DNA from: Pratylenchus scribneri
Lineage: Eukaryota; Nematoda; Chromadorea; Rhabditida; Pratylenchidae
Assembly (NCBI GenBank): GCA_030063045.1
Contig: JAQSEB010000060.1
Span: 640,696 to 704,695 of the forward strand
DNA length: 64,000 nucleotides
Reading direction: 5' to 3'
In this document: piece after piece, positions 32,311 to 50,755 of the stretch
How the letters are laid out: each line of letters starts with the position of its first letter
Position numbering within the stretch: the first letter of the stretch is position 1
Program-made: the position numbers and the translations under genes
The notes under the pieces: generated by a model
Seen by the model: the letters and a program-made list of their open reading frames with translations, nothing else
What the model was told of the DNA's origin: nothing
Database searches by the model: none

Positions 32311-32364
32311 AGTCTAATCTTTTCGTCATTTTTTCAGATAAATTGCCCTAAATATATTTTAAAC

Positions 32365-33135: not shown

Positions 33136-33179
33136 TTTAGAAAAAGGAAATAAAATGAAAGAGGTGTGCCTTATTGGAA

Positions 33180-33520: not shown

Positions 33521-33557
33521 AATCAGACCGAGTTCCTCATTCCAATCTAAACCCAAA

Positions 33558-34076: not shown

Positions 34077-34105
34077 GAAAGATAATATAACCAATTAATC
34101 AAAGA

Positions 34106-34113
34106 TATATAAA
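34106..34113 (+). promoter_or_regulatory. TATA box of the capsid/packaging gene block
   Basis: TATATAAA 40 bp upstream of the ATPase start. Similar TATATAA(A/G) boxes occur at 36,937, 37,290 and 41,422, each in an intergenic gap of this plus-strand block and without the GGGCG box of the accessory genes. Confidence 0.5.
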
Positions 34114-34152
34114 CTCAATATATTGTTATTTAATAATCATATTATTTTTATA

Positions 34153-34812: not shown

Positions 34813-35182
34813 TAACAATGCCCAAATTAGTCCACTTATTTATGAAAATATTGACTTTTTAAAATCAGTTGCTAAGACAAAATCTATAAATAAAAGAAAG
34901 AAAATATTGCGTAAAGCTACAACTTCACAATTATTGTCATTGGTGGAAATTAGTTTAAATATTCTCAAATCAAGATTTAAACTAACTGCGAGACAGAAGA
35001 ATAGAATACTCCCATATACAGATTTTGTAAGGAAATTAAGTAGAGTGAGATCAGAGAAGGGAGCAAGAAATCTAGTACAAAAAGGAGGCGGACTCGGACT
35101 TAAAGCTCTACCGGCAATTTTAACTCCAATTATTTTGGAAGTATTAAGAAATATTATTACAAAGGATAATGGCGGCCAATAG
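34805..35182 (+). CDS. Small basic Polinton protein, 125 aa
   Basis: Basic protein with pattern LVEISLNILKSRFKLTARQK, then LPYTDFVRKLSRVRSE and LVQKGGGLGLKALPAILTPI with a hydrophobic end. This layout (NIL..F.LT..QK..L..Y, then QKGGG and a hydrophobic tail) is common among Polinton and adintovirus small proteins and may be a core or virion protein. Overlaps both neighbours by 8-14 bp. Confidence 0.75.
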   Translation: MSNNNAQISPLIYENIDFLKSVAKTKSINKRKKILRKATTSQLLSLVEISLNILKSRFKLTARQKNRILPYTDFVRKLSRVRSEKGARNLVQKGGGLGLKALPAILTPIILEVLRNIITKDNGGQ

Positions 35183-35834
35183 ATTTGTTTTAGTGCCAGA
35201 AGATATTTACAAAGGCTTAACTTCAAGTGATACAGGAAATATTAACCTTGATTACTCTAAAAGAATGCTAGAAAATGTGAAAGAAGAGAAGACAAATCCT
35301 ACAATTAAAAACGCTCGATACAATCAAGAATTAAGAAGGTACTTACATCTGAGGAAGGAACATGAAGATAAGCCTGTTAAAGTTGAAATAACAGGCGCGC
35401 CAGAATCACAGACCATTGAGACAACACCTAGAGTATCACAAAAACAAAAAATATCCAGTAGAAACCCCTTTATCCATGTCTCACCTATGATGGAACTTTC
35501 GAATGAATTTATAATGAGAATGTCTGCTAATCCTGACAAATATAGTGTGACCTCAGAAGGAAGGATTAAAAATGAACATGGAAAAATTATCGAGGGAAGT
35601 GATATTAAAAAATCTATTAATTGGATAGTATCGAATGAAAAAGGTCTTCGTACAGGGCCAAGACCGAAAGGAACAATAATTTTAGAGAATGTAATTAGAA
35701 AGGACGATGCATTACTACAAATACTTCAAAATTTAAAGGCAAAGGATGAATCCTTATCATTCCATTCTCCAGTCGGAACTTCTACTCCAAAAAGTAAATA
35801 TAAGACACCTTTTACTCCGGCTAAATGGAGTTAG
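35169..35834 (+). CDS. Conserved Maverick protein of unknown function, 221 aa
   Basis: Begins MAANRFVLVPEDIYKGLTSS and contains NARYNQELRRYLHLRKEHED followed by KPVKVEI, a pattern I associate with a conserved Maverick gene next to the integrase. The middle is low in complexity; the C-terminus has a globular stretch (SVTSEGRIKNEHGKIIEGSD). No catalytic motif. Overlaps the integrase start by 10 bp. Confidence 0.75.
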   Translation: MAANRFVLVPEDIYKGLTSSDTGNINLDYSKRMLENVKEEKTNPTIKNARYNQELRRYLHLRKEHEDKPVKVEITGAPESQTIETTPRVSQKQKISSRNPFIHVSPMMELSNEFIMRMSANPDKYSVTSEGRIKNEHGKIIEGSDIKKSINWIVSNEKGLRTGPRPKGTIILENVIRKDDALLQILQNLKAKDESLSFHSPVGTSTPKSKYKTPFTPAKWS

Positions 35835-36928
35835 AAGAAAAAGAAAAAATTTTAAAACGTTTATACAATAATCCTAATTATCCTTCTTCCTTTGCTGGTG
35901 TGGATCAGTTATGGATCGAAGCTAAAAAAGAAATACCGAATATTAAGAAGAAAGAAATAAAAGAATGGTTGGAAGGAAGTCGAACGTATACAATTCATCG
36001 TCCAAGACGGGTGAACTTCCCCCGACAGAAAACTATTCCCTCTGGGTATATGACAGATGTCCAAGTTGACATAGCCGATTTGCAGAAGTTATCGAAAGAG
36101 AATAATGGAATAAATTATGCTTTAATAGCCATAGATGTTTTAAGTAAGCAAGTTTTCGGTGTTCCAGTGAAAAATAAAAATGCAAAGGATATGCTTGTGG
36201 CTTTCAAAAATTTATTTGAACTCATGCCTATGAAGCCACACAGATTATTTTCTGATAAAGGAAAAGAATTTACAAATTCTGATCTGAAAACTTTTTTTAA
36301 AGAAAACGATATTCAAAAATTCACTCCAAATTCTTCAACGGTCAAAGCATCATTAGCCGAAAGAGCCATACGAAATGTAAAACAGAGACTTTACCGTTAC
36401 ATGTCCCAAAAACAAACAGTTGAATGGGTACCGGCCTTGTCAAAAATAATTAATGCGATCAATAATTCTAAAAGTCGAACACATGGAATTAAACCGTCTG
36501 AGGTTAATTTCAACAATGCTAAAGAAGTATGGGAAAAACTATATGGACCAAGAGAAGATTTAATTGAACCGGAAATAAAAAAACCGCCTAAATTTAAAAA
36601 AGATGATTTTGTGAGAATGAGTAAAAATAAAGGAGTATTCCATAAGGGATATTTTCCTTCATGGAGTGATGAAATTTTACAAATTGAGCAAGTAAAGAAT
36701 CAGAACCCGCCTCGATACAAAGTACGCGACCAACAGGGAGAATTGTTCAAAGGATACTTTTATGAGCCAGACCTCCAAAAGGTGCGAAAGGATGAATCTA
36801 CGACCTATAGAATAGAGGAAGTAATTAGAACGAAGAAAGTGAATGGAAGAAAGAAATATTTTGTTAAATTTTATGATTACCCTAACCCTGAATGGATTGA
36901 CGAATCCGATATTGCCCCTACCGATTAG
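35825..36928 (+). CDS. Retroviral-type integrase with C-terminal chromodomain, 367 aa
   Basis: The RNase-H-fold core carries the DDE triad: D82 in VQVDIADL, D144 in RLFSDKGKEF and E179 in KASLAERAIRN, with 34 residues between the last two, close to the D,D(35)E rule. The C-terminus has a chromodomain (YRIEEVIRTKKVNGRKKYFV, then KFYDYPNPEWIDESDI). It would insert the Polinton into chromosomes, with the chromodomain steering it to modified chromatin. A zinc-binding HHCC-type N-terminus is not evident; a helical segment replaces it. Confidence 0.94.
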   Translation: MELEEKEKILKRLYNNPNYPSSFAGVDQLWIEAKKEIPNIKKKEIKEWLEGSRTYTIHRPRRVNFPRQKTIPSGYMTDVQVDIADLQKLSKENNGINYALIAIDVLSKQVFGVPVKNKNAKDMLVAFKNLFELMPMKPHRLFSDKGKEFTNSDLKTFFKENDIQKFTPNSSTVKASLAERAIRNVKQRLYRYMSQKQTVEWVPALSKIINAINNSKSRTHGIKPSEVNFNNAKEVWEKLYGPREDLIEPEIKKPPKFKKDDFVRMSKNKGVFHKGYFPSWSDEILQIEQVKNQNPPRYKVRDQQGELFKGYFYEPDLQKVRKDESTTYRIEEVIRTKKVNGRKKYFVKFYDYPNPEWIDESDIAPTD

Positions 36929-36979
36929 TAGATTAGTATATAAGTATTCAAAATTGTTCATTTTTAAAAAAATATAAAT

Positions 36980-37279
36980 ATGATAAAAATGTTTTCAAAA
37001 AACGATGTAAATCGAATTAAATTTTATAAAAATAAAATTTATCTCCATAAAGGCTATAAATTTAATTACTACTGTTTGATTCATAATCCAAGAAATGCCC
37101 CCATAACCAATCAATATGAAAAGTGGCCGTGTGAAAAAGTAGATGAACTTAATTGTCAGGCTTACCTAATAATTGACAGATGGAATGAAAATAGAATTAA
37201 ATTAATGAATACACATAACCATGCTCCTATAGAAGAGCTAAAAGAATATAATGGAGAAATTTGTAAAGATGGAGAGTAA
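36980..37279 (+). CDS. FLYWCH-like zinc-finger protein, 99 aa
   Basis: The pattern GYKFNYYCLIH, then W-PCEKVDELNCQAYLII and NRIKLMNTHNHAPIEEL fits a FLYWCH/WRKY-GCM-type C2H2 zinc finger: C-x(7)-C, a hydrophobic strand, then HNH. Preceded by TATATAAG (36,937-36,944) in its own intergenic gap. Single-finger FLYWCH proteins bind DNA or proteins. Its job in the element is unknown; regulation of element or host genes is plausible. Confidence 0.7.
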   Translation: MIKMFSKNDVNRIKFYKNKIYLHKGYKFNYYCLIHNPRNAPITNQYEKWPCEKVDELNCQAYLIIDRWNENRIKLMNTHNHAPIEELKEYNGEICKDGE

Positions 37280-37289
37280 TCCTAATGTG

Positions 37290-37298
37290 TATATAAAG
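37290..37298 (+). promoter_or_regulatory. TATA box before the minor capsid gene
   Basis: TATATAAAG, 43 bp before the minor capsid start. Confidence 0.45.
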
Positions 37299-37332
37299 TC
37301 TCAATATTAGTTTTTTCATTACTTTAAACATA

Positions 37333-37905
37333 ATGACTTCCACAAGCAATTATTATTTTGTTGTTTTGCCAAGCGATGTCCCAGATTACCCTGATAATAA
37401 ACCAAATAAATATCGAGTACACCTCCCCAGACCGATTGAATTTCAAGGAGGAAATTGGGTATGTGGTCTCTACAGTATTCAATACCCTCAATCATGGGCT
37501 GCCACCATAGGGACTAATGAACAACAATGGATACAAATATATTACAAAAATGGGACTTTTCGTAGCGTGAATATTCCTAAAACATCCCAACAAACCGCTG
37601 AAGGTTTAAGTGAATACTTGAAATATGTTCTTTTGAACCAGTCATTGCTATCCCATAAAAATTTACAAAATCGAAAACGAAGATTTATACATTTAAAAGA
37701 CGAAGAGGAAAAGAGAGCCCGAAGGGAAGCTACATCTGGAAATGAGAATGACTGGATCAATACTTTTTTATCGAGCATCGCGAAGATTATTGGACACATA
37801 TTCGAGAAGAAAGAAAAGTTTTCGAAACCTTGGAAAATACAATTAAAAATAAAATACAGGAGAGTAATAATGAAGCCGATAGGAATAAGCATAAAAAAAT
37901 ATTAG
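37333..37905 (+). CDS. Minor capsid (penton-like) protein, N-terminal frame
   Basis: 190 codons. It begins with the Polinton minor-capsid N-terminal signature: NYYFVVLPSDVPDYPDN, then NKYRVHLPRPIEFQGGNWV and CGLYSIQYPQSW. After about residue 140 it loses family character and becomes out-of-frame sequence. The rest of the protein lies in the -1 frame (37,752-39,518). The two frames overlap, and at 37,764-37,770 there is a T TTT TTA heptamer in exactly the phase needed for -1 slippage. Either the protein is made by programmed frameshifting or a 1-bp indel has broken it; I favour the former modestly. Confidence 0.85.
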   Translation: MTSTSNYYFVVLPSDVPDYPDNKPNKYRVHLPRPIEFQGGNWVCGLYSIQYPQSWAATIGTNEQQWIQIYYKNGTFRSVNIPKTSQQTAEGLSEYLKYVLLNQSLLSHKNLQNRKRRFIHLKDEEEKRARREATSGNENDWINTFLSSIAKIIGHIFEKKEKFSKPWKIQLKIKYRRVIMKPIGISIKKY

Positions 37906-39518
37906 ACGAAATTGAAACTCTCAACGCTACATCAGATTCAATGCTACAGAGAATAAATTTGTTAGAGAAGGCTGCAAAAGATAAAGATGAAGAGAATAAA
38001 AGAATTGAAAATCAAATTGCTGAAGAATTTTTCCGTGTCTACCCCGAGCCCGAAAGATATAATGAAAAAATTACAGAGGAACGACTCAGATACATATCCA
38101 TGGTTGAAGAGCTTCAACAAAAAGTTCAACTTTATAAGGATGCAAAAAGTTTGGAAAGAATAAAGGAATTGGATAATGAGACAAAAATTATCAGACAACG
38201 AATTAAGCTTCTTGAGAAAAATTTGAGAATAATTTCGAAAGCTATAATCCAAAAGGATTTGAATAAGCCATATGACGATTATCAAAAGCAAAATAATGAA
38301 AAGAATTCAGAATTCGTAAATGATTTTTTCCAGAAAAATCCTGATTATTGGCCGGCGATAGGAAAACAATTTAAAATTTTGCAAGATACATATAAAGAAA
38401 TCCGGGTAAAGAGAGAAACATTATTGGCTGCTGTAATACCGGAAGAAAAGGATACTTTGAAAAAACAAATTGAAGATTTAAGAAAAATCGCCGAGTACAG
38501 AAGACACAGGTTTAACGCATTAGAATATGAAGCTAAAATTAGAGATGAACGATCACTACCTGAATCTCAAGCATTGACAGGGGGTTTATTACAGCAAGTC
38601 CGCGATAAATTAAAGAAGAATGAAGAAGTAAGTGAGCAAAGCTCTCAAGAAACGGGTGGCCTAATTCAACAAGTAAAAGAAAGGCTTGCTGAGGATACGG
38701 AAGAAGAGAAAATTCCTAAAGAGACAGGCGGAATTCAACAAGTAAAAGAAAGGCTTGCTGAGGATACGGAAGAAGAGAAAATTCCTAAAGAAACGGGTGG
38801 CCTAATTCAACAAGTAAAAGAAAGGCTTGATGAGGATACGGAAGAAGAGAAAATTCCTAAAGAAACGGGTGGCCTAATTCAACAAGTAAAAGAGAGGCTC
38901 GCAGGGGATACGGAAGAAGAGAAAATCCCTAAAGAGACAGGCGGCCTAATTCAACAAGTAAAAGAGAAGCTTGCAGGGGATACGGAAGAAAAGAATACCC
39001 AAGAAACAGAACCAAAAGGACTACTCGAAATTGTACGGCAGAGACTTATTCCTTTAGATGGGATTCCTGAAATTGAGTTTGAATATATTAAGAATATTGA
39101 TCGTTATCAAATTAAATTTAATAATCCTGAAATTAGCCACATAACTCTTTCAGAACAAATTGCTTATGTTGCTGGGTTTAAAGATGAAACACGTTATTAT
39201 ATAGAAAATGGAGAAATAGGAAAATATACTGTCGATTTACAAAGTGGCTACTCAAGCTTTGCTGTTTACGCTAATGGTCTGACGAGGAGCGTAATTCTAG
39301 GAAATTCCCTAAGCTCACTACTCAGGATAGTAGCTGTTGAAAATCAAGTCGGAGGCTATGTTGAACGAGTGTATGACCAGCCTATGTTTATTCCTGTCCT
39401 GCCGCGTCAAATAAATGAAATAGAGATAGAATTGAAGTGGTTGAATGGAAGATATATACCCTTTGATTATGGGACTGTGCTAGTGACTTTAGTATTTAAG
39501 AAAGTTATAAATTTGTAA
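37752..39518 (+). CDS. Minor capsid (penton-like) protein, C-terminal frame
   Basis: Open from 37,752 (after a TGA); no ATG is found at a sensible place, so it probably depends on entry from the upstream frame. It has a long coiled-coil middle, then five near-identical tandem copies of about 24 residues (GGLIQQVKERLAEDTEEEKI). The jelly-roll-like C-terminus carries family motifs (YTVDLQSGYSSFAVYANGL, SVILGNSLSSLLRIV, and PVLPRQINEIEIELK before the end). The penton-like protein occupies capsid vertices; the coil and repeats are lineage-specific additions to the usual fold. Confidence 0.85.
   Translation: MDQYFFIEHREDYWTHIREERKVFETLENTIKNKIQESNNEADRNKHKKILDEIETLNATSDSMLQRINLLEKAAKDKDEENKRIENQIAEEFFRVYPEPERYNEKITEERLRYISMVEELQQKVQLYKDAKSLERIKELDNETKIIRQRIKLLEKNLRIISKAIIQKDLNKPYDDYQKQNNEKNSEFVNDFFQKNPDYWPAIGKQFKILQDTYKEIRVKRETLLAAVIPEEKDTLKKQIEDLRKIAEYRRHRFNALEYEAKIRDERSLPESQALTGGLLQQVRDKLKKNEEVSEQSSQETGGLIQQVKERLAEDTEEEKIPKETGGIQQVKERLAEDTEEEKIPKETGGLIQQVKERLDEDTEEEKIPKETGGLIQQVKERLAGDTEEEKIPKETGGLIQQVKEKLAGDTEEKNTQETEPKGLLEIVRQRLIPLDGIPEIEFEYIKNIDRYQIKFNNPEISHITLSEQIAYVAGFKDETRYYIENGEIGKYTVDLQSGYSSFAVYANGLTRSVILGNSLSSLLRIVAVENQVGGYVERVYDQPMFIPVLPRQINEIEIELKWLNGRYIPFDYGTVLVTLVFKKVINL
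37764..37770 (+). promoter_or_regulatory. Candidate -1 ribosomal frameshift site
   Basis: TTTTTTA read as (AC)T TTT TTA in the upstream frame, matching the X XXY YYZ slippery rule. Ten bases downstream, CGAAGAT (37,781-37,787) can pair imperfectly with ATATTCG (37,798-37,804). Shifting back by one base enters the open -1 frame and continues to 39,518. Confidence 0.5.
38650..39000 (+). repeat. In-frame tandem repeat inside the minor capsid gene
   Basis: Five copies of a unit of about 72-75 bp (GGCCTAATTCAACAAGTAAA onward), one lacking a Leu codon. Near-identity of the DNA suggests recent expansion. Confidence 0.9.
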
Positions 39519-39584
39519 TTCATTTTAATTTGATATTATCATAATATTGTTAAAAATTTTTCCTGTTTGATAAAAATTTCAAAA

Positions 39585-40097
39585 ATGCATATTCCATTCG
39601 ACACAAGAACTGTATCATATGATGATCATGTATTTCAAATAGGGGGAGGATTAAATGACGAAGATGATATTCTAAAAGAACCATATACATACTATCGGGG
39701 AATGAACCCTTACCAAAGAGGCTATGGCTTTACCAGACAAAATGGTGCCGGAATTGGAGATATTCTTCGCGGAATTTGGCGTTATATATTGCCTGTAATC
39801 AGGAGAGCAGGAACTTCCGTTGGAAAAGAAGCACTCTCGACTGGAGAGAGAATACTGGATAAAATAGCAGAAGGAGGGAATGTCAAAGAAGCCATTATAG
39901 AAGAGGGAAAAAAAGGAATTGATACTATCCTTGAAAAGGGTCGAAAACAGATTGGATCGGGGACTATAAAAAGGCGAAGAAAACATATAGAAATACCCAT
40001 TCATCAAACCATTATTGGAAGAAAGGTTGTTAAACCCCTTCCTAATTTAAAAATAACAAAAAAGAGAAAAAGGATAGATAATTTCGGTCTTTATTAA
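39585..40097 (+). CDS. Adenovirus pVI-like Polinton virion protein, 170 aa
   Basis: Start ATG 39,585 (MHIPFDTRTVSYDDHVFQIG). The centre reads YQRGYGFTRQNGAGIGDILR, then WRYILPVIRRAGTSVGKEAL, an amphipathic helix region, and ERILDKIAEGGNVKEAI. The tail is Lys/Arg-rich (GTIKRRRKHIEI; KKRKR). Glycine-rich motif plus amphipathic helix plus basic tail is the layout of Polinton/adintovirus proteins likened to adenovirus pVI or pX, which may disrupt membranes or bind DNA. It sits between the two capsid genes, as expected. Confidence 0.75.
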   Translation: MHIPFDTRTVSYDDHVFQIGGGLNDEDDILKEPYTYYRGMNPYQRGYGFTRQNGAGIGDILRGIWRYILPVIRRAGTSVGKEALSTGERILDKIAEGGNVKEAIIEEGKKGIDTILEKGRKQIGSGTIKRRRKHIEIPIHQTIIGRKVVKPLPNLKITKKRKRIDNFGLY

Positions 40098-40106
40098 TTA
40101 AATAAA

Positions 40107-41414
40107 ATGACGACCTTTCATAAAATTGACAAGGATTCCCCAAATGCCATCACCAATGCTCTATCGATTTTTGATATCCCTAGTACAAATGTAACTGTTA
40201 GTTCTTCCTCGTTCCGAGAATATTTAACACTTAACCCTCTCACCGATATTCCATATCATTTTAAAATTCATGCAAGCACAAATTACATCGATCTATCCAA
40301 ATGTTACTTACTTATGGAATGTAGAATAAAGAAAAGGAATGCCGAAGGACTTCTGATTAATGTACCTGCTAATGAAGACGTTTCTATATGCCAACTAATT
40401 GGGCATTCAATATGGAAAAATTGTAGAATTTCTATTAACGGAACACAGGTGTTTGAAGGGAATTCTCTGATGGCCTACAAAAGTATTTTTGACTATGAAT
40501 TAACCTATCCAACAACAACAAAAACTTCCTATCTTAATGTCGCAGGCTATTATAAAGATGGAGATTCACAGACAGAAGGACCAGGATATGAAAATCGAAA
40601 ACAGCTATTTGCTCAAAGTAAAACAGTACAATTTATGTCAAAATTAGATGTTGATCTTGCTAATCAACCCAAATATTTGGTTAATCAGTGCGAAATTGAC
40701 GTGGAATTGCTTCCTAACGACAGTAATTTTGTCATAATTACTGGTACCGAAAACACTTATCATTTTGAAATCACTGGCTTGAAATTATATGTAAAAATGT
40801 TGGAATTAGTGGACTCATTGGCCTATGATATCAATAAAAAACTTGAGCTCAAACCGGCAAGGTATCCTATGAGAAAAACGGCCATAAAATCAATGTTCAT
40901 AGGAGAGGGACATAGAGAATATAATGCTTGTCTTTGGACCGATCAAATCCCGAGAAGAGTGACTTTAGCATTGCTGAGCAACAAAGATTATGTAGGAGAC
41001 CAGAAAACAAGTCCATTCAATTTTCAACCTTTCCACCTAAGGAGCATATCGGTAATTGCAAACGGTGTAAACCATCCAGAAGCGCCATATACTCTGGATT
41101 TTCCAAATAAAAAATATGCACGCGCATTCCACGACACTATGGATGCTATTGGATATGCAGGATCATTAGAAAGCAATGGAATAGATTATAAGTCATATGG
41201 TAATGGTTGGTGTATCTTTGTATTTAATCTAACTACATCAAAAGAAGACAGCGGTGATACTTTCGACTTGATTAAACCGGGTTCATGCCTAGTAAAATTA
41301 TCTTTTAACCAAGAGGTGCCCGAGGGTGGCGTTGTGCTCGTTGCTATGGCAGAAGTAGACGCTTTATTGATGCTAGACCGAAACAGGACTATTTCCACGG
41401 ATATAACAGTATAA
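40107..41414 (+). CDS. Major capsid protein (double jelly-roll, hexon-like), 435 aa
   Basis: Features of Polinton major capsid proteins are evident: SIFDIPSTNVTVSSSSFREY, the conserved HASTNYIDLSKCYLLMECRI strand, KNCRISINGTQVFEGN, YKSIFDYELTYP, then LPNDSNFVI in the second jelly roll, and a C-terminal FDLIKPGSCLVKLSF. Length is typical. Trimers would build the icosahedral shell. The frame is intact. It begins 9 bp after the pVI-like gene, implying co-transcription. Confidence 0.92.
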   Translation: MTTFHKIDKDSPNAITNALSIFDIPSTNVTVSSSSFREYLTLNPLTDIPYHFKIHASTNYIDLSKCYLLMECRIKKRNAEGLLINVPANEDVSICQLIGHSIWKNCRISINGTQVFEGNSLMAYKSIFDYELTYPTTTKTSYLNVAGYYKDGDSQTEGPGYENRKQLFAQSKTVQFMSKLDVDLANQPKYLVNQCEIDVELLPNDSNFVIITGTENTYHFEITGLKLYVKMLELVDSLAYDINKKLELKPARYPMRKTAIKSMFIGEGHREYNACLWTDQIPRRVTLALLSNKDYVGDQKTSPFNFQPFHLRSISVIANGVNHPEAPYTLDFPNKKYARAFHDTMDAIGYAGSLESNGIDYKSYGNGWCIFVFNLTTSKEDSGDTFDLIKPGSCLVKLSFNQEVPEGGVVLVAMAEVDALLMLDRNRTISTDITV

Positions 41415-41421
41415 AATCCCA

Positions 41422-41430
41422 TATATAAAT
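41422..41430 (+). promoter_or_regulatory. TATA box before the membrane protein gene
   Basis: TATATAAAT, 133 bp upstream of the next start, in the gap after the major capsid gene. Confidence 0.4.
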
Positions 41431-41554
41431 ACCCGTTTACTCATCATATTTATTTATGTTAAAAATTAAATTCCACTATATATTATTTACAATTTATTTT
41501 ATTTTAATATTTACAAAATTTTGTTATTCACTATTTTAATTTTTATAAAATAAA

Positions 41555-41884
41555 ATGGATATAAATAAGACCAATCAATCAGCAGAAATGCTACAAGAAC
41601 CACCACAATTTATTCAATTCCCTACAATTCCGTTGTGTAAAGATATTTCCGACAAATCGATATATAGTACAATATATTGCTATATCCTATTGGTACTATA
41701 TTTTTCAGTAATAGTTACTTTCCTAATTTGGCAAATTCGTTGGGTATATCTGTGGTGGAAACGACAAAAAGAGAATGGCTTCTCTGGACTCGGATCAAAT
41801 CACGAAAATATTGAACTTCAACAGAGTAACAAGAAGATATTTTCAGGGCTGTTATCCAAGCGATCAAGCCCCGTCGAAAAATGA
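41555..41884 (+). CDS. Small single-pass membrane protein, 109 aa
   Basis: The N-terminal half is polar with a Cys (TIPLCKDISDKS). One hydrophobic segment follows (YCYILLVLYFSVIVTFLIWQ), then WVYLWWKRQK and a polar Ser-rich tail. It overlaps the protease start by 110 bp in another frame. Small membrane proteins at this place are common in Polintons. Function unknown; a virion membrane or exit role is possible. Confidence 0.65.
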   Translation: MDINKTNQSAEMLQEPPQFIQFPTIPLCKDISDKSIYSTIYCYILLVLYFSVIVTFLIWQIRWVYLWWKRQKENGFSGLGSNHENIELQQSNKKIFSGLLSKRSSPVEK

Positions 41885-42233
41885 TCTAAATTACCCCGCT
41901 GCTATCATCTTTAATCTAGACAAATCAAATGAAGATGGCTCTCATTGGACTGCGGTTTTCGTCAGTGGAAAAAATAAAGAAGTGAACTATTTCGATAGTT
42001 ATTCGATCGAGCCAACAGGAGAAATCAAGCAATTTTTAAACCAATATAATAATTTAAGAATGAATAGATACCCTTATCAGTCACTAAATACAAATGTTTG
42101 TGGTCATTATTGTATTACTTTTATTTATTTTATGTCCTTAGGTTATCCCTTTGAAAGATTTTTACAATTGTTAAATTCATCTGAAAATTCAGATTTATTC
42201 GTAAAAAATATTGTTACAAAAATGTTGAAATAA
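41775..42233 (+). CDS. Adenain-like cysteine protease (C5 type), 152 aa
   Basis: The catalytic set of adenovirus-type proteases is visible: H57 in GSHWTAVF, D74 in YFDSYS, Q102 in YQSLNTN and nucleophile C109 in NVCGHYC. Length is short, as for Polinton proteases. It would process capsid precursors during maturation. The start overlaps the membrane protein gene by 110 bp. Confidence 0.9.
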   Translation: MASLDSDQITKILNFNRVTRRYFQGCYPSDQAPSKNDLNYPAAIIFNLDKSNEDGSHWTAVFVSGKNKEVNYFDSYSIEPTGEIKQFLNQYNNLRMNRYPYQSLNTNVCGHYCITFIYFMSLGYPFERFLQLLNSSENSDLFVKNIVTKMLK

Positions 42234-43050
42234 AATTTTAAAAAAATACAAATTATCGATAATTGTGTTCTCGCGATTAAGGGAATGGTCCCATAACATA
42301 ATCATTTAGACTGTAACGTCACGGCGATTTACCGTTCCTTATGAAATAGCTTAACATTCTAAAAAGCGGAAGGGCCATAGCTCACGTCCTGTGACGGCCA
42401 TTAGCTCGCAATCCGGATCGTTAGGGTGATCAACCTCTCTTACTAAGTTTAACATATATGAAATTAAGACCGAATTCTCAAATACAGAAAAGTAACCAAA
42501 ATTCCTCGGCCCCCTCTAGCCCACCCGCCGATTCTTTTTTGGCCTACCAGTTCCGGATCATTTTGGCCAAGCCAAGGCGATCTACCCTCACTACGATAAC
42601 AAAAACTTTCTATGAAATGTATGAACTAAATATAGTAAATGTAAGCAGAAACTCTACTTCTCGGAAGACCGATCCATAGAGCAATGCATCCATTTCCGGA
42701 TCATTTAGGCTATTAGCCAAGGCGATCTACCCTTACTCACTAATTTATTCTCACTATGATAGTCCCTACCCCCCATTATATATATTTCGTAATAATTAAA
42801 AATTTTAAACTAATTTTCTAAAAATTTTTCTGATTAAAATTAACTAAGAATTGGGGGACGTTACGCGACCGATCTTTTTAGTCAGCGATACTCGCGAACC
42901 CCAAACACGAGGACCTTAGCCGATGGTTTGGTAGGTCTTCACTTTAATTCTTGGAAAATTTTAATTATTTTTCCTTCATTCACTACCATATAAGATTTAA
43001 AATAATTCAAATTAAAATTTATTATATGGAGATATCGAAAATAACAATAA
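42234..43050. other. No gene; region between transcription blocks with a direct repeat
   Basis: A phrase of about 45 bp (GGATCATTTTGGCCAAGCCA then AGGCGATCTACCC) at about 42,554 recurs at about 42,698. A 73-codon frame across the first copy has no protein character. Convergent gene ends meet here, so terminators may be present. Confidence 0.5.
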
Positions 43051-43064
43051 TTGAATAAAATGAA

Positions 43065-43442
43065 TTATTTATTTTTTGGACTTATTAAGTCTGTCACTCC
43101 TGCATTGATTCTGATACATTCATCGCAAAATCCTATCCCTAATTGGAGGCGATCGTTGACTCGTGAAAATTTCTTCTTATTATTGAATAAGTGGTCGCTG
43201 CATTCTTTGCAGAGTTTAAAAATTAATAAATATTTTTGCTTACATAGCTTCCAGATTTGGGGCTCAGCTGGCTTCTCAGATGTTTCAGTCGTGACTTCTT
43301 CTTCTCCGCTTTCTTCAGTGCTAGACTTTACGTCATCCATTACTTGATCCTTCGCTTCCTGGGCACATGTTTTCTTCTTCTTCTTCTTTTTCAATTCTCG
43401 GTTATAGGGAGTTTTTTGATTCTTATTAATTGATTTACACAT
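43065..43442 (-). CDS. Polinton accessory zinc-ribbon-like protein, 125 aa
   Basis: The N-terminus is very basic (ELKKKKKKKTCAQEAKDQ), the middle acidic and Ser/Thr-rich (SSTEESGEEEVTTETS), and the C-terminus has Cys pairs (WKLCKQKY; FKLCKECSDHLF; IGFCDECIRIN) compatible with a zinc ribbon. Transcribed divergently from the PAZ gene through a GGGCG-box promoter. Basic tail plus acidic stretch plus ribbon suggests a nuclear regulator, by analogy only. Confidence 0.6.
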   Translation of the reverse strand: MCKSINKNQKTPYNRELKKKKKKKTCAQEAKDQVMDDVKSSTEESGEEEVTTETSEKPAEPQIWKLCKQKYLLIFKLCKECSDHLFNNKKKFSRVNDRLQLGIGFCDECIRINAGVTDLISPKNK

Positions 43443-43489
43443 TTTGGATTAAAATGAGGAATTAGTAGAAAAATGAAGAACTTATATAA

Positions 43490-43660
43490 AACCTAAAAGA
43501 GGGCGTGGTCAAAGGCGGAGCTTGGATATTTGGCAATTTTCCAAAAAAGGGCGTGGTCAAAAATTTGGCAAATTTCCAAAAAGGGCGGAGTCTAAATATT
43601 TGGCAAGATGCCAAAAAAACGTGAAATAGGCGTGGCTTAGACTACTATAAATATTCTCAA
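43490..43660. promoter_or_regulatory. Divergent promoter with repeated GGGCGTGG boxes
   Basis: Boxes GGGCGTGGTC (about 43,501 and 43,550), GGCGGAGC/GGGCGGAGTC (about 43,515 and 43,580) and GGCGTGGCTT (43,629), followed 9 bp later by TATAAATA (43,646-43,653). Repeated ATTTGGCAA lies between the boxes. Confidence 0.7.
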
Positions 43661-43696
43661 TATTTGTACCTAAATTTTATAATCCAATTAATAAAA

Positions 43697-44242
43697 ATGA
43701 CAGTTCTATTAGTCAACGAAATCGCTAAGCTACTTAAGTGTAATGTCTCAACAATTCGATTTCATCTCGACCATCCAGAAGATCGAAACAAAGTTATCCG
43801 ACATTTTTCCGGTGCCCTTCTTCAGACAACTTACCTAAATCGTAAAAAGGAAAAAACAAGAATACGTTTCGCTGGCATTACTGAAAACGGTGCATATAAT
43901 ATCAAAGCATATGGAAAATTGAAAATGCTATATAACTGTTCTATTGTACAACATTACTTTGCACGCCATAGAATCCGTCTGAGAGACCCTTATCTACAAT
44001 GCGTAGTGGCCCACACTCATCATAATACAGAGTTTTACCCAATTGAGTTACTTGAAATTGTTAGCAATCCATGGAATGAATTGCCAGGTTTAAAGATCGC
44101 TAATGATACTGAACCAAAATGTAATGTTCTTTTGCGCGTTTGCCCTCATTGCAAGGATTTATGTGAGATGCATTGCCCTGACGAATCGGACTCGGATAAA
44201 TTTAAAGAAATGGGGAAAAATATGTTTCTTGAACGTTGGTAA
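43697..44242 (+). CDS. Stand-alone Argonaute-type PAZ-domain protein, 181 aa
   Basis: Start ATG 43,697, 44 bp after a TATA box. Residues about 30-124 follow an Argonaute/Piwi PAZ domain: KVIRHFSGALLQTTYLNRKK, RIRFAGITENGAY, then SIVQHYFARHRIRLRDPYLQ and the hallmark TEFYPIELLEI (compare the xxYLPxELCxI end of Argonaute PAZ). PAZ binds the 3' end of guide RNAs. The usual N, MID and PIWI domains are absent: there is no room, and the tail (142-160) is a Cys cluster (CNVLLRVCPHCKDLCEMHC) that may bind zinc. Intronless, with an accessory-type promoter. I infer a small-RNA-binding decoy or silencing antagonist; a role in guarding element RNA is an alternative. Confidence 0.8.
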   Translation: MTVLLVNEIAKLLKCNVSTIRFHLDHPEDRNKVIRHFSGALLQTTYLNRKKEKTRIRFAGITENGAYNIKAYGKLKMLYNCSIVQHYFARHRIRLRDPYLQCVVAHTHHNTEFYPIELLEIVSNPWNELPGLKIANDTEPKCNVLLRVCPHCKDLCEMHCPDESDSDKFKEMGKNMFLERW

Positions 44243-44449
44243 ATTGTTAATTTTGATTAATAGTTATCTTCTTATCCTTAATTCTATTAAATTACCCCTA
44301 AAAATGGAAACTTCTCTAGCCTAATTTTATAATAATTGTAACTTCTCTATTATCTATTTTATCATCTGATGATTAGTTAATATAAAATCGAAAAAATATG
44401 CGTTCATTATTATCAAATTTTTATTTTTTAAACTTTAATATGATAAAAA
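44243..44449. other. Convergent gap
   Basis: AT-rich 207 bp between the ends of the PAZ and innexin genes. No gene. Confidence 0.4.
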
Positions 44450-45535
44450 TTAAACATTTAATTGATGTAAAACAAATAATTGATTAATGAATTGATGAGT
44501 TAAAGGTATTCCAAAATTATTGAGAATAAAATATGTTATGAGTCGGTAATCAGAATTATATACTTTTTTGAATTGTTCAATTTCTAAAGGATTTTGACCC
44601 TCTAATGATAGATTAATTTGTCGATTAATTAGGAGATAAGAAATTACAACTTTAAAAATATAAAACATATTAAAGAATAAGAGAAATATTAAATAAAAGT
44701 AAATACACATGAAAATTTTTTCGTTTAAAATATTTATTGTAAGCAAGCATTGGAAGGTATGGTTGTGAGGATTTCCAAGGGAAGTAATTTTCATGTCGCA
44801 AAATGTAATTCTAGGAAAAATTGAACCGTTATTCTCATCATACAATAAAGATATGAGTACATCATAGCCCCAGAATAAATTCATTTTTCCTACCAATAGA
44901 GTTAAAAATAATAGTTGCATTATTACGTTGAACAAGCATATTGATTTCACAATTATGAAAATGAAGCCGTTTTTCAGCAATGCTGTAAAATTCAGAAATG
45001 CCACGATTCTGGAGAACGAGTTAAATTCATTTTCCAATTCGATTTCCTCCTTCAGTTTACTGACAATTTTTGCAATTTCCTTTTTCCTTTTTCCACTTGA
45101 AAGGCTTCGGATTGAATCGAATTTTTCTATAATGTCACAAACATCAACCGTTCGCGAATAAAAGTATTTAATGATTAAACATGGAAAGTAGAAACAGATG
45201 GCTTGCTTAAATAAAATTAGTGGTAGCCATGGGTAATAATGAATCTTGTCGTACGGTCTTATTCCATATATTATGTCGTCCATATTCGTTTGAGGAGAAT
45301 AGGTTTTTTGAGTAAAACAGTATTCCTTACTATAATCGTTCCATGTAGGGTTAAAATTTGCGGGTAAAAGGCATTGTATGGGTGAACCAAGATACTGCTT
45401 TGCTGAGATGATTAGAGCACAAATGGCAAATAATATTGGTGTAAAAATATAATTTAAGAAGTCTGCGAAATCATCGGTCGGATTTCGTTTAAATTTGCCG
45501 ATAAAAGATTCCGAAAGAAAGGGAATTTTAAACAT
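44450..45535 (-). CDS. Innexin (gap-junction protein) carried by the Polinton, 361 aa
   Basis: Start ATG 45,535 (MFKIPFLSESF), as innexins begin, and downstream of a TATA box; the longer frame runs into the promoter. Hallmarks: DDFADFLNY, SAKQYLGSPIQCLLPANF, YSKEYCFTQKTY and the innexin-defining YYPWLPLIL (usually YYQWVP). The second loop has FPRITFCDMKI and HTFQCLLTINILNEKIF. All four extracellular Cys are present with normal spacing: C-x17-C (C55, C73) in loop 1 and C-x16-C in loop 2. Four membrane helices are visible. Length is near normal. Host innexins build gap junctions and hemichannels. The gene is intronless and shares the element's promoter type. I infer captured host cargo still under selection. 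Confidence 0.93.
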   Translation of the reverse strand: MFKIPFLSESFIGKFKRNPTDDFADFLNYIFTPILFAICALIISAKQYLGSPIQCLLPANFNPTWNDYSKEYCFTQKTYSPQTNMDDIIYGIRPYDKIHYYPWLPLILFKQAICFYFPCLIIKYFYSRTVDVCDIIEKFDSIRSLSSGKRKKEIAKIVSKLKEEIELENEFNSFSRIVAFLNFTALLKNGFIFIIVKSICLFNVIMQLLFLTLLVGKMNLFWGYDVLISLLYDENNGSIFPRITFCDMKITSLGNPHNHTFQCLLTINILNEKIFMCIYFYLIFLLFFNMFYIFKVVISYLLINRQINLSLEGQNPLEIEQFKKVYNSDYRLITYFILNNFGIPLTHQFINQLFVLHQLNV

Positions 45536-45559
45536 TTTTATAATAGACTGACAAATTTT

Positions 45560-45660
45560 CAGCTTACTTATAAACAAGCAAGCCACGCCCTTTCTGGGCG
45601 GAGTCTAAATATTAGGCAAGATGCTAAAAGGGCGGGGCTTAATTCGTTGTATAAAAATGA
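45560..45660. promoter_or_regulatory. Divergent promoter of innexin and PolB genes
   Basis: Minus strand: GGGCGTGGCTT then TTATAA (45,568-45,573) serves the innexin gene. Plus strand: GGGCGGAGTCTAAATATT (about 45,598), then GGGCGGGGCTT (45,630-45,640) and TATAAAAA (45,650-45,657) serves PolB. Box-to-TATA spacing is 8-11 bp on both sides. Confidence 0.75.
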
Positions 45661-45698
45661 TACATTTTTCATTTAATTTTCATATTTTATCCACCGCA

Positions 45699-48600
45699 AT
45701 GGATGATCAACCACCTACAAAAAAACGACGTATTGATTATACCGATGAGGAATTAGAGATTGTAAAAGAAATTGACAACCATGTAAAGTTATTGGAGGGT
45801 GAAATAAGTTTTAATGAGAAATATAAATGTCTGCAATGCAAAACTAAATATTCAATCGAATCAATTCCGGATGATCCAGAATCCCTCCTGTCTGAAGTGT
45901 TCCAGACTTGTGTTGATGATGCAATTAAAGTTAGCAAAAGTAAAAAAATTAAACCCGATCAGTTAGGAGCAATGATTAGCTCTTCTTTGTTAGATCCAGA
46001 TATATGGATTCCTATTCGTGAGATTACAGAAAATACAACTGATGCAATATTAAACCGGTTCCTACTCGTAGCTCAATCAAAAAGAAAGGAAGGAGAGGGA
46101 TCTCTTTGGGGGGATCCCTTCACAGTAACTATCACAGTTTTGGATAAAAATTCATTGGAAAAAAAGCGTACTATTAAAGGAAAAGGCAAAAATAAAAATG
46201 TAGTCAAACATAACTTTAATCAAAAGAACTTAATTAAAATTGAGAATTCGGACAATTATTGTCTATTCTATGCCCTACAACTGACATTGATTTACCAATT
46301 AAAATGTATGAACCAAGTAAAATTTTATAGATATCAAAAAGAAGAATCGAGCAATTTAAAATATGATGTGCACTCCTTGATGAAAAACTGCTATATTCCA
46401 TTCAACAATGAAATATATGATGCAACTTATTATGGTCCCATAATCATAAATTACTGGAATCAAATCTACAAATCTCATAAATTTAAATTGTTCATTTTTG
46501 GTGAATTTGGCAACTATAAACCTATTTTTAAATACGGCGACGACGCTTTTGATATTGCTATTATAATTTATCATCACGATAATCATTTTGAAGGAGTCCG
46601 GAATATTGCTTCCATATTTGGTAGAAATAAATATTGCTTAAGCTGTGAATCACCTTTTACAAATAATAAATCACACCGAAAAACTTGTAAAAGCAGATGC
46701 ATTAATTGTACAAGACATGGACTATCTTACCCATGTCCTGAAAAACCGGATTATAAAGCGTATTGTAAAGATTGTAAGAAAAGTTTTATAAATCCTGATT
46801 GTTTTAAATATCATTTGGAAAATAATATATGTGAAATATCAAAGAAATGTGAGGCTTGTGGAAAAATTTATGACGTTTCTCAAAATACAATAAATGGAAG
46901 AAATGGGCATACCTGCAACGAGAAATGGTGCTATAGATGTAAAATATTTCATGAAAAAGAAAGAGGCTGCTATATACAAAAATTAACATTAAAATTCCCC
47001 AAGGACTACAGAATCCTTGTCTACGACGTTGAAACTATGCAACATAAAAGTATCGACCCTATAAAATTTCCGGAAAGATTTCAACATAACGTGAATTTTA
47101 TCGCACTAAAAGTAATATGCACAAGTTGCATACGGTTCAATCGAATTAATGACAGTTTATTACATGAAGATTGTGAAATTTGCGGCTCATATCGAACTAT
47201 AACGTTTTCTCATAGAAATTTTAATGATACCTTTGTTGACCATAAGATCATTACCGATGACCCTTTGAACGATTTTGTTGAATGGATTCTCTCTAAATTT
47301 TCAACAAAATATAAAAGTATTTGTTTCGCCCACTATGGAGGAAGATTTGATCACATTCTGACTTTTAAAGAATTATTCAGACTCGGTTTTAAACCCGGAT
47401 TGATCAAAAAAGGCAATAAAATATATCAGATGAAAATTCCCAGAGGCAAAATAAATTCTGAAATTATATTTAGAGATTCTTATAATCTGACACCAATTTC
47501 ACTCGAATCTTTGGTCCCAGCGTTTGATTTAAAAATCGAGGAAAAATTGTTTTTTCCACATTTAGCAAATAACCCTTCAAATTATGATAAAATTCTACCT
47601 AATTTACCTCCTAGAGAGGATTACATGGAAGGCGGAATGTTACCAACTAAAAAAGCAAAATTCTGTAAATACTATGAAAAACATAAAAATGAATCCTTCA
47701 ATTTATCCGAAAAACTAGCTGAATACTGCTTAAACGACGTCGAAATTCTCTGTGCCGCCCTTGTAGCATTTAGGGCTGAATTTTATGAATTGAGTAGAAA
47801 AAAGAAAAGAAAACAAATCATGTACAATTCTACTAATAATCTATGGAGAAATTGGAAGCCTGAAGACAGAGGGATTGATATATTAAATGCTGCAATCACT
47901 ATTGCAAGCGGATGCATGCAACATTTTAGGCTAAATCATTTGCCGGAAAATCATGTTGGAATAACCCCTGAGAGAGGATATGACACTGCTGAAAATCAGA
48001 GCTTCCTAGCTTTAAAGTTTATAAAATGGTTCTCCTACAAAAACGGCATTTCCTTTCGGACATCTCTCTCTAAGGAAGGTGAATATAAATGTGGACCATA
48101 TAAAATAGATGGATATGCGGAAAAGGAGAAATTAGGATTAGAAATAAACGGTTGCGTCTGGCATGCTTGTCCTATACATTATCCTGATGATCAATTCATT
48201 CTACCATCGGGAAAGACCGCAGGGAAGGTTCGAGAAATGGATGAAATAAGAATGGATTTTATAAAAAGAGAAATACCTAATATAAAGATTTATTGGGAAT
48301 GCCAAGTTATGGATATGCTAAGGAAGGATAATGAAATGAAGACCTTTTTTGATAATTGTCTCGATGAAGGCCCGCTAAATGTAAAGGATTGTTATTTTGG
48401 AGGAAGAACACAACCTTTTAAAGTCTATCATGAAGCTAAGGAAGGAGAGAAGTTGGCATATTATGATTTTACTTCACTTTACCCGTACACAAATTTTGTG
48501 ACCGAATACCCTGTTGGCCATCCTGAAGTACATATTTTAAACGAGAATGTTTTGTGGCAAAAACCAGAAGATAATCCATACAAAATCGCCCTTCTCAAAG

Positions 48601-49787
48601 TATTTGTAATACCTCCAAGAAAGATTGATATACCCGTGCTGCCTATGAAGTTTGACGATAGACTCTTATTCCCTCTCTGTCGATTATGCTGTCTAAAATA
48701 TCCTACAGGTGCAGTAATCAAAAACTATAGTTGTGAACATACCGATCAAGAGAGAGGTTGGATTTCGTCTTGTACATCGATAGAATTAAATTTCGCTCTG
48801 AAAGAGGGTTATAAAGTGGATAAACTATACAGAGTTTTAGAATTTAAACAAACAGATTCCAAACTTTTTCGTGGCTATGTTTCTGAATTTTTAGCCATGA
48901 AAATTCATGCATCTGGCTTTCCTAATGACATTAAAACAGAGGAAGATGAAGAAAAATATATTAAAGAATGTGATGAGAAATTTGGAATAAAAATTGAAAA
49001 GAAAAAGATGATCAAAAATAATGGAAAAAGATTCATCGCAAAATTGTGTGCTAATAACCTTTGGGGTCGATTTTCTCTAAAAAATCATTTTGTAAAAACT
49101 CATATTGTCATTTCTCCGGCAGAATTGAGAGAATTCTTGGAAGATAAAAAGATAGAAGTAAATGCGATAGATTTTTTAACGGAGGATTCAATTTTGTTAA
49201 GTTATGAAGTTAAAAATGAATTTATCGAAGAACATGATTGCTCAAATGTCATTATAAGCCTATGGACTACATCTCAAGCCAGATTGTTTCTCCTTGAGGC
49301 AATGCTGAAGGTTTCAAGAACAGAGGGATGCGAATTATGCTATTGCGACACTGATTCAATAATTTATTCATACAAAATAAACAACAATCCTTTAAAAACA
49401 GGGCCTCATCTAGGGGATTTAACGGATGAATACCCTAATAAGGAAATATTGGAGTTCATTTCAGGAGGTGCCAAGCAATATGGACTGAAGCTCAAGGATA
49501 ATTCGACTGGAGAGATCACATACAGCTTAAAGTTAAGGGGAATAACACTCAACAACGAAATACTTAAAACCACTTTGTGTTATGAGAATTTTAAAGAAAG
49601 TGTACTAAATTATGCCAAATATGGAAAAATCGAAACTATCCCAGTTACTTACGACAGATTTATACGGCCTTCGATAAAGAAAGGAGAAATTATATCAAGA
49701 AAGATGATAAAAGTTTATAAACCTTATGTTTCTAAAGGCATATTAGATGGCTATTATATAAGAGATTTTGGTTTTATTAATTTGTAA
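45699..49787 (+). CDS. polB: Protein-primed family B DNA polymerase, 1,362 aa
   Basis: Start taken as ATG 45,699 (MDDQPPTKKRR); in-frame ATGs at 45,621 and 45,657 are closer to the TATA. The N-terminal third has Cys/His clusters (CLSCESPF, CINCTRHG, YCKDCKKSF, CEACGKIY) typical of Maverick PolB. Exonuclease motifs: YDVETM (about 441), HYGGRFDHIL (about 542) and EYCLNDVEIL. Polymerase motifs: A YYDFTSLYPY (about 920), B KLCANNLWGRF (about 1,114) and C YCDTDSIIY (about 1,214). An inserted module (EINGCVWHACPIHY) before motif A resembles the nuclease-like insert of many Polinton polymerases. It would replicate the element by protein priming at the termini. Confidence 0.95.
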   Translation: MDDQPPTKKRRIDYTDEELEIVKEIDNHVKLLEGEISFNEKYKCLQCKTKYSIESIPDDPESLLSEVFQTCVDDAIKVSKSKKIKPDQLGAMISSSLLDPDIWIPIREITENTTDAILNRFLLVAQSKRKEGEGSLWGDPFTVTITVLDKNSLEKKRTIKGKGKNKNVVKHNFNQKNLIKIENSDNYCLFYALQLTLIYQLKCMNQVKFYRYQKEESSNLKYDVHSLMKNCYIPFNNEIYDATYYGPIIINYWNQIYKSHKFKLFIFGEFGNYKPIFKYGDDAFDIAIIIYHHDNHFEGVRNIASIFGRNKYCLSCESPFTNNKSHRKTCKSRCINCTRHGLSYPCPEKPDYKAYCKDCKKSFINPDCFKYHLENNICEISKKCEACGKIYDVSQNTINGRNGHTCNEKWCYRCKIFHEKERGCYIQKLTLKFPKDYRILVYDVETMQHKSIDPIKFPERFQHNVNFIALKVICTSCIRFNRINDSLLHEDCEICGSYRTITFSHRNFNDTFVDHKIITDDPLNDFVEWILSKFSTKYKSICFAHYGGRFDHILTFKELFRLGFKPGLIKKGNKIYQMKIPRGKINSEIIFRDSYNLTPISLESLVPAFDLKIEEKLFFPHLANNPSNYDKILPNLPPREDYMEGGMLPTKKAKFCKYYEKHKNESFNLSEKLAEYCLNDVEILCAALVAFRAEFYELSRKKKRKQIMYNSTNNLWRNWKPEDRGIDILNAAITIASGCMQHFRLNHLPENHVGITPERGYDTAENQSFLALKFIKWFSYKNGISFRTSLSKEGEYKCGPYKIDGYAEKEKLGLEINGCVWHACPIHYPDDQFILPSGKTAGKVREMDEIRMDFIKREIPNIKIYWECQVMDMLRKDNEMKTFFDNCLDEGPLNVKDCYFGGRTQPFKVYHEAKEGEKLAYYDFTSLYPYTNFVTEYPVGHPEVHILNENVLWQKPEDNPYKIALLKVFVIPPRKIDIPVLPMKFDDRLLFPLCRLCCLKYPTGAVIKNYSCEHTDQERGWISSCTSIELNFALKEGYKVDKLYRVLEFKQTDSKLFRGYVSEFLAMKIHASGFPNDIKTEEDEEKYIKECDEKFGIKIEKKKMIKNNGKRFIAKLCANNLWGRFSLKNHFVKTHIVISPAELREFLEDKKIEVNAIDFLTEDSILLSYEVKNEFIEEHDCSNVIISLWTTSQARLFLLEAMLKVSRTEGCELCYCDTDSIIYSYKINNNPLKTGPHLGDLTDEYPNKEILEFISGGAKQYGLKLKDNSTGEITYSLKLRGITLNNEILKTTLCYENFKESVLNYAKYGKIETIPVTYDRFIRPSIKKGEIISRKMIKVYKPYVSKGILDGYYIRDFGFINL

Positions 49788-49894
49788 TTATTATTATATT
49801 GTTAATTGTATTTTGAAAATAAATTTTTATTTGTATCAGAACATTTAATTTTTATTTTTATTAGATTAATTTACATTTAAAATAATAATAAAAT

Positions 49895-50365
49895 TTCTGA
49901 GGAATTTCGTAACATGATGACTCATCACATTCCTTACTATTTCGTAAGATGATGACTCATCACATTCCTTACTATTTCGTAACCTGATGACTCACCACAT
50001 TCCTTACTATTTCGTAACATGATGACTCATCACTATTTCGTAATATGACTCACATCACATTCCTTACTATTTCGTAATCTATGATTCATCACTATTTCGT
50101 AATCTATGACTCATCACTATTTCGTAATCTATGACTCATCATATTCCTTACTATTTCGTAATCTATGACTCATCACATTCCTTACTATTTCGTAATCTAT
50201 GACTCATCACTATTTCGTAATCTATGACTCACATCACATTCCTTACTATTTCGTAATCTATGACTCATCACTATTTCGTAATCTATGATTCATCATATTC
50301 CTTACTATTTCGTAATCTATGACTCATCAAATTCCCAACTTTTTCGTAATCTAATGATTCATAAA
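49895..50365. repeat. Right-end tandem array of the Polinton
   Basis: About fifteen irregular copies of TATTTCGTAATCTATGACTC followed by ATCAC(ATTCCTTAC). Two unit lengths alternate, with and without ATTCCTTAC. Related phrases lie in the left promoter region (33,290-33,400) in inverse orientation. May be a subterminal replication or packaging region. Confidence 0.85.
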
Positions 50366-50377
50366 TTTCTTAATAAA

Positions 50378-50755
50378 TATGTCGAGATTCATTAAAAATG
50401 CCGAGAATCCTGGGGCCGTGAAATAATACTGAATCTATTACTACTATTATGCTTAGTTAATTTTGGAATTCTCAGCTTATATATGAATTACAGTCACGAG
50501 AATAGGCTCATGGAATTCGGGGTAGATTTATTATATCACATTTAAATTCAGAACGGTATGGGTTTGTTTAATTAGAAACATTTTCCGTCAGATTCCTATC
50601 CCGTCTTCAGCGCCCTACCCCTAGCCATAACCTTATTCCGCATATAGTAAATTGACCAGCAGGAAGAGTCTCAATTGATCCCATAAAACCTATAAAAGCC
50701 GAGATTCCAGAATTAACCAACTAAACACTTGGATAATTCCGGTAACCGTGATATA
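50378..50755 (+). repeat. Right copy of the inverted pair bracketing 25 kb
   Basis: Bases 50,378-50,452 match, inverted, 25,640-25,725. After a nested MITE (50,453-50,725) the match resumes as ACTTGGATAATTCCGG and ATATATAAA. Continuity on both sides of the MITE shows that the repeat predates the MITE insertion. Confidence 0.6.
50453..50725. mobile_element. MITE nested in the right terminal-type repeat
   Basis: Inverted ends: TTAGTTAATTTTGGAATTCT at 50,453, and rc TTAGTTGGTTAATTCTGGAA near 50,725. The interior (AGAATAGGCTCAT, CCTATCCCGTCTTCAGCGCC, AACCTTATTCC) is shared with 23,302-23,600. Confidence 0.65.

Follow-up and report, generated by a model that had tools for sequence, protein, structure and literature searches.

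An innexin gene within a Polinton

The DNA analysed here (the window, 64,000 nucleotides of the Pratylenchus scribneri genome) contains a Polinton/Maverick element with both ends present, and an intronless innexin gene lies inside this element, between the genes for a PAZ-domain protein and a type B DNA polymerase (PolB). The features of the element are the following:

25648..50445, no strand assigned: Polinton/Maverick element, both ends present; 24,798 bp, with a 6-bp target duplication (ATTATG) on either side
25648..25714, + strand: left terminal inverted repeat (TIR), 67 nt, 97% complementary to 50379-50445; begins AGTAGTAATAG
34153..34812, + strand: A32-like packaging ATPase; PF04665, E 4.8e-5
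35825..36928, + strand: retroviral-type integrase; PF00665, E 2.6e-7
37333..39518, + strand: presumably a minor capsid/penton-like gene, named on gene order; two ORFs here (37333-37905 and 37941-39518), homologues L036 and L037
39585..40097, + strand: conserved Polinton protein, 170 aa; 51% to L034
40107..41414, + strand: what we take to be the major capsid protein candidate, from its size and gene order; 55% to L034
41555..41884, + strand: small protein with one hydrophobic stretch (read by eye); tblastn 31% to L034 of lineage B
41775..42233, + strand: Ulp1/adenain-like protease; PF02902, E 6.8e-6
43065..43442, - strand: small conserved Polinton protein, 125 aa; tblastn matches to L001-L011 and others, beside the innexin in lineages A1 and B
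43697..44242, + strand: PAZ-domain protein; PF02170, E 9.2e-8
44450..45535, - strand: innexin, 361 aa, intronless; Pfam Innexin, 226.6 bits
45536..45698, no strand assigned: innexin-PolB intergenic region with promoter boxes facing both directions; PolB start at 45699
45578..45590, - strand: promoter-like box GGGCGTGG, which begins at -55 relative to the innexin ATG
45596-45608 and 45630-45642, + strand: promoter-like boxes, from a box search of the window
45621..49787, + strand: PolB, 1388 aa as ORF; PF03175, E 1.4e-40
50379..50445, - strand: right TIR, pairing with the left repeat

The genes and the ends are those of a Polinton, and not of an ichnovirus genome. The element has TIRs and a 6-bp target duplication, a PolB of the viral/organellar type, an A32-like ATPase, an adenain/Ulp1-like protease and an integrase, the last with a Pfam score (31.3 bits) slightly below the curated value of 32.6. 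The right boundary is marked by the loss of homology to other copies, which falls at 50445/50446 in five loci and 50430 in a sixth; the PolB start was taken as the ATG at 45699, inferred from homologues. Note that gene order and conservation are the whole basis of the capsid-type assignments in the window. The capsid candidate matched neither Pfam nor PHROG, and its single-sequence fold model (pLDDT 32) was uninformative as to a double jelly-roll. The minor-capsid-like gene, split in the window copy, is uninterrupted in L036 and L037, where single ORFs encode 779 and 726 aa, respectively.

The innexin itself was compared with the Pfam Innexin profile, which it matched far above the cut-off of 25 bits and over positions 1-330 of 333. 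It carries two cysteines, conserved in their spacing, in each extracellular loop (C55/C73 and C246/C263) and the YYxW motif at TM2, and the predicted fold is a four-helix channel fold. Identity to C. elegans INX-6 (5h1q, 6kff series) is 22% over the aligned residues. The sequence-only reading had described a complete innexin with the family hallmarks, four helices and four loop cysteines, encoded in one intronless frame between PAZ and PolB of a Polinton; this description was borne out, and the element around the gene has TIRs and a target duplication.

Several other features were observed in the window. A small FLYWCH-like zinc-finger protein (36980-37279; E 0.0011, under the Pfam cut-off) is conserved in lineage B (L036). 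Unit arrays with TTTCGTAA and a TGACTCATCA-like stretch lie at 49904-50365 and at 33224-33361, the latter partly inverted. Outside the element there are tandem arrays at 53761-54596 (about 22 nt), 55328-55969 (about 24 nt) and 59414-59995 (about 18 nt), and a retroelement-like ORF with a DUF1758 peptidase and a chromodomain at 298-1422.

The family of Polinton-linked innexins

The sequence-only reading had proposed looking for innexins inside other Polintons, and the genome holds a family of innexins beside Polinton genes. The assembly searched (227,248,964 bases in 276 contigs) agrees with the published P. scribneri HiFi draft, whose report gives 276 contigs and 227.24 Mb (PMC10138993). An innexin family search of this assembly gave 154 matches, and many of these are exons belonging to the worm's ordinary innexin genes. 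Among the best 30 of these places, 26 had Polinton neighbours (L001-L025 and L028, on 20 contigs), linkage being defined as at least one of PolB, PAZ and the 125-aa protein within 1.5-kb flanks; the remaining four (L026, L027, L029 and L030) are host exons. Twenty of the 26 linked copies are intact ORFs, 18 of them spanning 336-375 aa and two reading 416 aa from an earlier ATG, so it is not the case that all other copies carry nonsense mutations, an outcome that had been named as fatal to the proposal. The other six (L008, L011, L023, L024, L025 and L028) are broken or cut. Since L001/L002 and L014/L015 are identical over their ORFs, the intact copies amount to 18 distinct sequences, and some copies may be haplotypes.

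The copies fall into three lineages. A1 is the window type; the A2 innexins are about 46% identical to it and their PolB 68% over its full length; in lineage B the corresponding values are about 30-35% and 44%. All four loop cysteines are kept in 24 of the 25 Polinton-type innexins examined, the exception being the intact ORF L010, which has lost one, and the family motifs are likewise retained in nearly all copies examined. To read the surroundings, 20-kb neighbourhoods were taken around four other copies (one A1, two B, one A2). In the A1 neighbourhood (L037/L038) there are genes for integrase, protease, PAZ protein and PolB, together with the minor-capsid-like gene and the capsid candidate. 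Of the B neighbourhoods, the first (L033/L034) has PAZ, PolB and protease genes, a capsid candidate and others, the second (L035/L036) PAZ, ATPase, integrase, minor-capsid-like gene and others; neither 20-kb stretch holds the full set, and gene order varies among the lineages. In the 20 kb around the A2 copy (L031/L032, contig C11) the innexin was accompanied by PolB and PAZ only, and a rescan of this stretch at E up to 1 added nothing except one chance-level match. This copy could be a reduced element or an insertion, or its other genes could lie farther out. The PAZ-domain protein adjoins the innexin in all three lineages; one guess is that a PAZ protein encoded by a mobile element could disturb silencing by small RNAs.

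The ends of four elements, all of lineage A1, were inspected, and three of them have exact 6-bp target duplications: ATTATG in the window, GCGGAA in C176 (24011-45090) and AAGATC in C114. In the fourth, on C23 (L048, L049), the arms are identical over 1617 nt, the flanks are identical to each other too, and the copy sits near a contig end; it is possible that this is an assembly fold-back. In the C114 copy (L050, L051) the PolB end is present in both terminal arms, which suggests inverted repeats of roughly 2 kb, where the window copy has 67 nt.

Relatives were also found in other public datasets, where proteins 96%, 87% and 70% identical to the window innexin occur (361-362 aa). Two further database proteins (P0008 and P0009) group with lineage B, and P0009 has no branch length from L007. 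Since P0009 and the PolB record P0103 come from the same metagenome source, and each lists a longest contig of 7344 bases, both are probably on one contig carrying innexin and PolB. IMG/VR viral contigs gave no relative by innexin, innexin profile or PolB, although records close to the window's genome may be excluded there.

These results bear on the possibility that a host gene was misassembled into the element, or that the innexin is a neutral passenger. Nothing in the window copy favours this, and the only hint of it elsewhere is the suspected fold-back on C23. Misassembly is unlikely because 26 linked copies are spread over 20 contigs and three lineages, the assembly matches the HiFi draft, the target duplications are exact in three A1 elements, and innexin and PolB are probably linked on an independent metagenome contig. 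As for a neutral passenger, the dN/dS ratios lie far below 1. We therefore reject both possibilities.

Selection and the promoter box

Nei-Gojobori dN/dS ratios were calculated pairwise among the intact innexins; the sequence-only reading had called for dN/dS on the branch. The ratios were 0.06-0.11 in A1, 0.12-0.27 in A2 and 0.13-0.24 for most pairs in B, and the well-diverged pairs (dS about 0.6-1.2) gave 0.09-0.15, demonstrating purifying selection on the innexin. Young pairs are less constrained, with ratios of 0.23-0.40 in the close B pairs. The first third of PolB was analysed in parallel in 10 of the 11 intact A1/A2 copies, and gave 0.07-0.16 for most A1/A2 pairs and 0.09-0.13 for the well-diverged ones (dS about 0.6-1.2). 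The outliers were 0.51 for L017/L019, of which L019 is interrupted, and 0.27 for L012/L013, with one change of each kind. PAZ, for which ratios come from five A1 copies only, gave 0.07-0.21. Note that pairs with no silent changes have no ratio; these were four innexin pairs, and L020/L022 in PolB and PAZ, while the L020/L022 innexins differ by three replacement and no silent changes. Innexin constraint thus parallels PolB constraint. The sequence-only reading had called the gene Polinton cargo. Its residence in a Polinton holds, but the word cargo is too weak for a gene that three lineages share and that is under PolB-like constraint.

The constraint is unevenly distributed along the protein. 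In the five pairs analysed by region, the N-terminus and TM1, which in innexins line the pore, had in every case a ratio at or close to the minimum (0.00-0.14), while the cytoplasmic loop and the tail were mostly the least constrained (0.17-0.44). Exceptions were TM3 in three B pairs (0.32-0.89) and TM2 in one (0.65). This regional pattern would be expected for a working channel subunit. As a separate observation, dS varies with the gene when the window copy is compared with L020: it is 0.40 for the first third of PolB, 0.105 for the innexin and 0.043 for PAZ, and these unequal values suggest recombination between A1 elements.

Of the 11 GGGCGKRG boxes in the window, 10 lie within the element. 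Upstream of the innexin it is found at -51/-55 in all five intact A1 copies and at -60/-61 in five of the six intact A2 copies (L016 has no exact box). This position, from -51 to -61 in 10 of 11 copies, supports transcription of the innexin by the element's own program in A1 and A2. In contrast, none of the nine intact B copies has an exact box within 130 nt upstream, which rules out a promoter box common to every lineage, and no shared B motif was found by eye in 14 upstream stretches. The earlier claim that the innexin has the element's own promoter box is therefore upheld for the window and for nearly all A1/A2 copies, but does not extend to B.

One could propose that the copies chiefly enlarge the innexin repertoire of the worm, with the elements as the vehicle. 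The presence of 20 intact copies in one genome would fit this, as would the A2 copy flanked over 20 kb by PolB and PAZ only. We regard it as very improbable, because the examined A1 copies keep their TIRs and target duplications, the A1 and B copies retain capsid-, protease- or integrase-type genes, the promoter box of the element stands upstream in A1 and A2, and the innexin is constrained in parallel with PolB.

Origin and proposed function

The phylogeny that the sequence-only reading had asked for placed the Polinton innexins with nematode innexins that we take to be of the INX-3 type, namely P0012 (a Panagrolaimus protein), P0014 (a Halicephalobus protein) and the host genes L026, L027 and L045. 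These belong to the same family, share its N-terminus and motifs, and are among the nearest rows in the trees. In a 53-row tree, 21 Polinton-type innexins formed one clade (97/93) next to P0012 and P0014, whereas two Polinton clades came out of a 75-row tree that includes long arthropod rows. Both trees contain 16 of the 20 intact copies (15 and the window copy) and five database proteins assigned to the Polinton type on similarity (P0002, P0003, P0004, P0008 and P0009), and exclude proteins shorter than 320 aa; a named set of 22 database proteins, long-branch or partial, is also absent from the 53-row tree. Two smaller trees were built from 32 and 28, respectively, of 61 proteins including the window copy, with 11 copies and two host genes. 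In the 45-row tree, with two spliced host genes added, the Polinton clades were unjoined and a single clade was not rejected (AU p 0.44); in the 41-row tree the Polinton innexins were joined weakly (80/83).

PolB relatives of the window's element were found in Meloidogyne, Globodera and Heterodera, and in a PolB tree made with a quick method (SH-aLRT only) lineages A and B lie separately among the Polintons of these genera. A single ancient capture therefore requires losses or exchange; the innexins may stem from one capture with later loss, from two separate captures, or from exchange between Polintons. A word-dependent protein search listed no Meloidogyne innexin and one from Globodera, a result that cannot prove absence from their Polintons. 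The host INX-3-type genes of the same genome contain introns, whereas the Polinton copies have none, and this difference suggests capture through RNA. P0012 also differs in its longer tail.

Innexins carried by viruses have been described in other systems. The ichnovirus vinnexins (Campoletis sonorensis ichnovirus and others) are presented as intronless innexin homologues, viewed as acquired host genes (PMC7016691, PMC8402728), that form gap junctions and alter encapsulation (PMC8402728). The window innexin resembles them in being virus-borne and without introns. Vinnexins, however, belong to polydnaviruses of wasps that are delivered into caterpillars, while the carrier here is a Polinton, integrated in a nematode genome and equipped with PolB, integrase, ATPase and protease genes. 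A second case, the innexin g155 of the shrimp nimavirus Nimav-1_LVa, again places such a gene in a large DNA virus that is endogenous to an invertebrate, but is described with four exons in a virus of about 280 kb (PMC7016691), compared with an intronless gene in an element of 21-25 kb here. Finally, the nematode Mavericks studied by Widen have also taken up gene families as cargo; a meeting report names wosp proteases, krma kinases and a putative fusogen (PMC10680173), whereas the cargo here is an innexin. In the open-access collection searched, no paper mentions an innexin together with a Polinton or adintovirus, and the co-mentions with Maverick were unrelated by title and abstract. Innexin capture by invertebrate DNA viruses thus appears recurrent, having occurred in ichnoviruses, a nimavirus and now Polintons, and among these captors the Polintons carry replication and integration genes of their own.

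We propose that a nematode INX-3-type innexin was captured by a Polinton of tylenchid nematodes, probably via an mRNA copy since the introns are absent, and has since been kept as a working gene in three element lineages. In A1 and A2 at least, transcription would start from a promoter of the element, and the protein would most likely fold as a normal innexin subunit. Such subunits would most likely form channels, by themselves or mixed with those of the host, in the membrane of a cell with an active element. Their most plausible role would be to alter electrical and small-molecule coupling to the neighbouring cells or to the outside, as the ichnovirus vinnexins do. This reading, drawn mainly from the window's own element and lineage A1, we consider probable. 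The points counted against it are the separate positions of A and B in the PolB tree, the two clades of the 75-row tree, the A2 copy with PolB and PAZ only, the boxless B copies, the cysteine lost in L010 and the weaker constraint in young pairs.

Another possibility could be that the protein acts like a viroporin, as an undocked hemichannel (innexon) that permeabilises the infected cell, with ATP or ion release, egress or death, and forms no gap junction. In pannexins, glycosylation of extracellular loop 2 hinders docking, and a loop-2 N-glycosylation sequon is present in 16 of the 25 Polinton-type innexins, compared with two of 20 other innexins. Moreover, the C-terminal tail after the NEK motif is short, 75-103 aa against 112-156 aa in 16 of 18 parsed others (two fused records are longer). 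However, nine of the 25 lack the sequon, including all six intact A2 copies, which rules out the idea that every copy bears a loop-2 glycosylation site marking it as a hemichannel. In addition, the two other innexins that have it are P0012 and P0014, the closest host-type relatives, so the sequon is probably ancestral. It leans weakly toward a hemichannel, a reading that we hold to be possible but rather doubtful.

The innexin could also act as a poison subunit, joining host innexin hexamers and blocking or retuning them so that the coupling of the infected cell falls. INX-3-type innexins of the same genome are among its nearest relatives, and the N-terminal/TM1 region is under constraint. We nevertheless think this unlikely: the family motifs and loop cysteines are intact in nearly all copies examined, and the sequence bears no inhibitory mark.

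The probable reading, a captured innexin that alters coupling, has a bolder extension. The innexin could be a core ancestral gene of a tylenchid Polinton clade that spreads through cell contacts, opening or remodelling the junctions between infected soma and germ line and replacing the fusogen role of other nematode Mavericks. A search for a fusogen candidate found no leftover ORF of at least 300 aa in 25648-50445. We rate this extension as quite improbable.

The family of intact copies with matched PolB sequences lends itself to tests of selection, timing and exchange, and raises a testable question, whether virus-like elements of the germ line change cell coupling to spread or to be tolerated. 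In addition, innexin gene counts in nematode genomes may include Polinton genes. Finally, a search of viral structures with the innexin model found similar predicted folds among the BFVD entries: two unnamed matches with E below 0.001 (A0A067ZV72 and A0A067ZU31) and one entomopoxvirus protein (W6JKV6) with E 1.7e-3.
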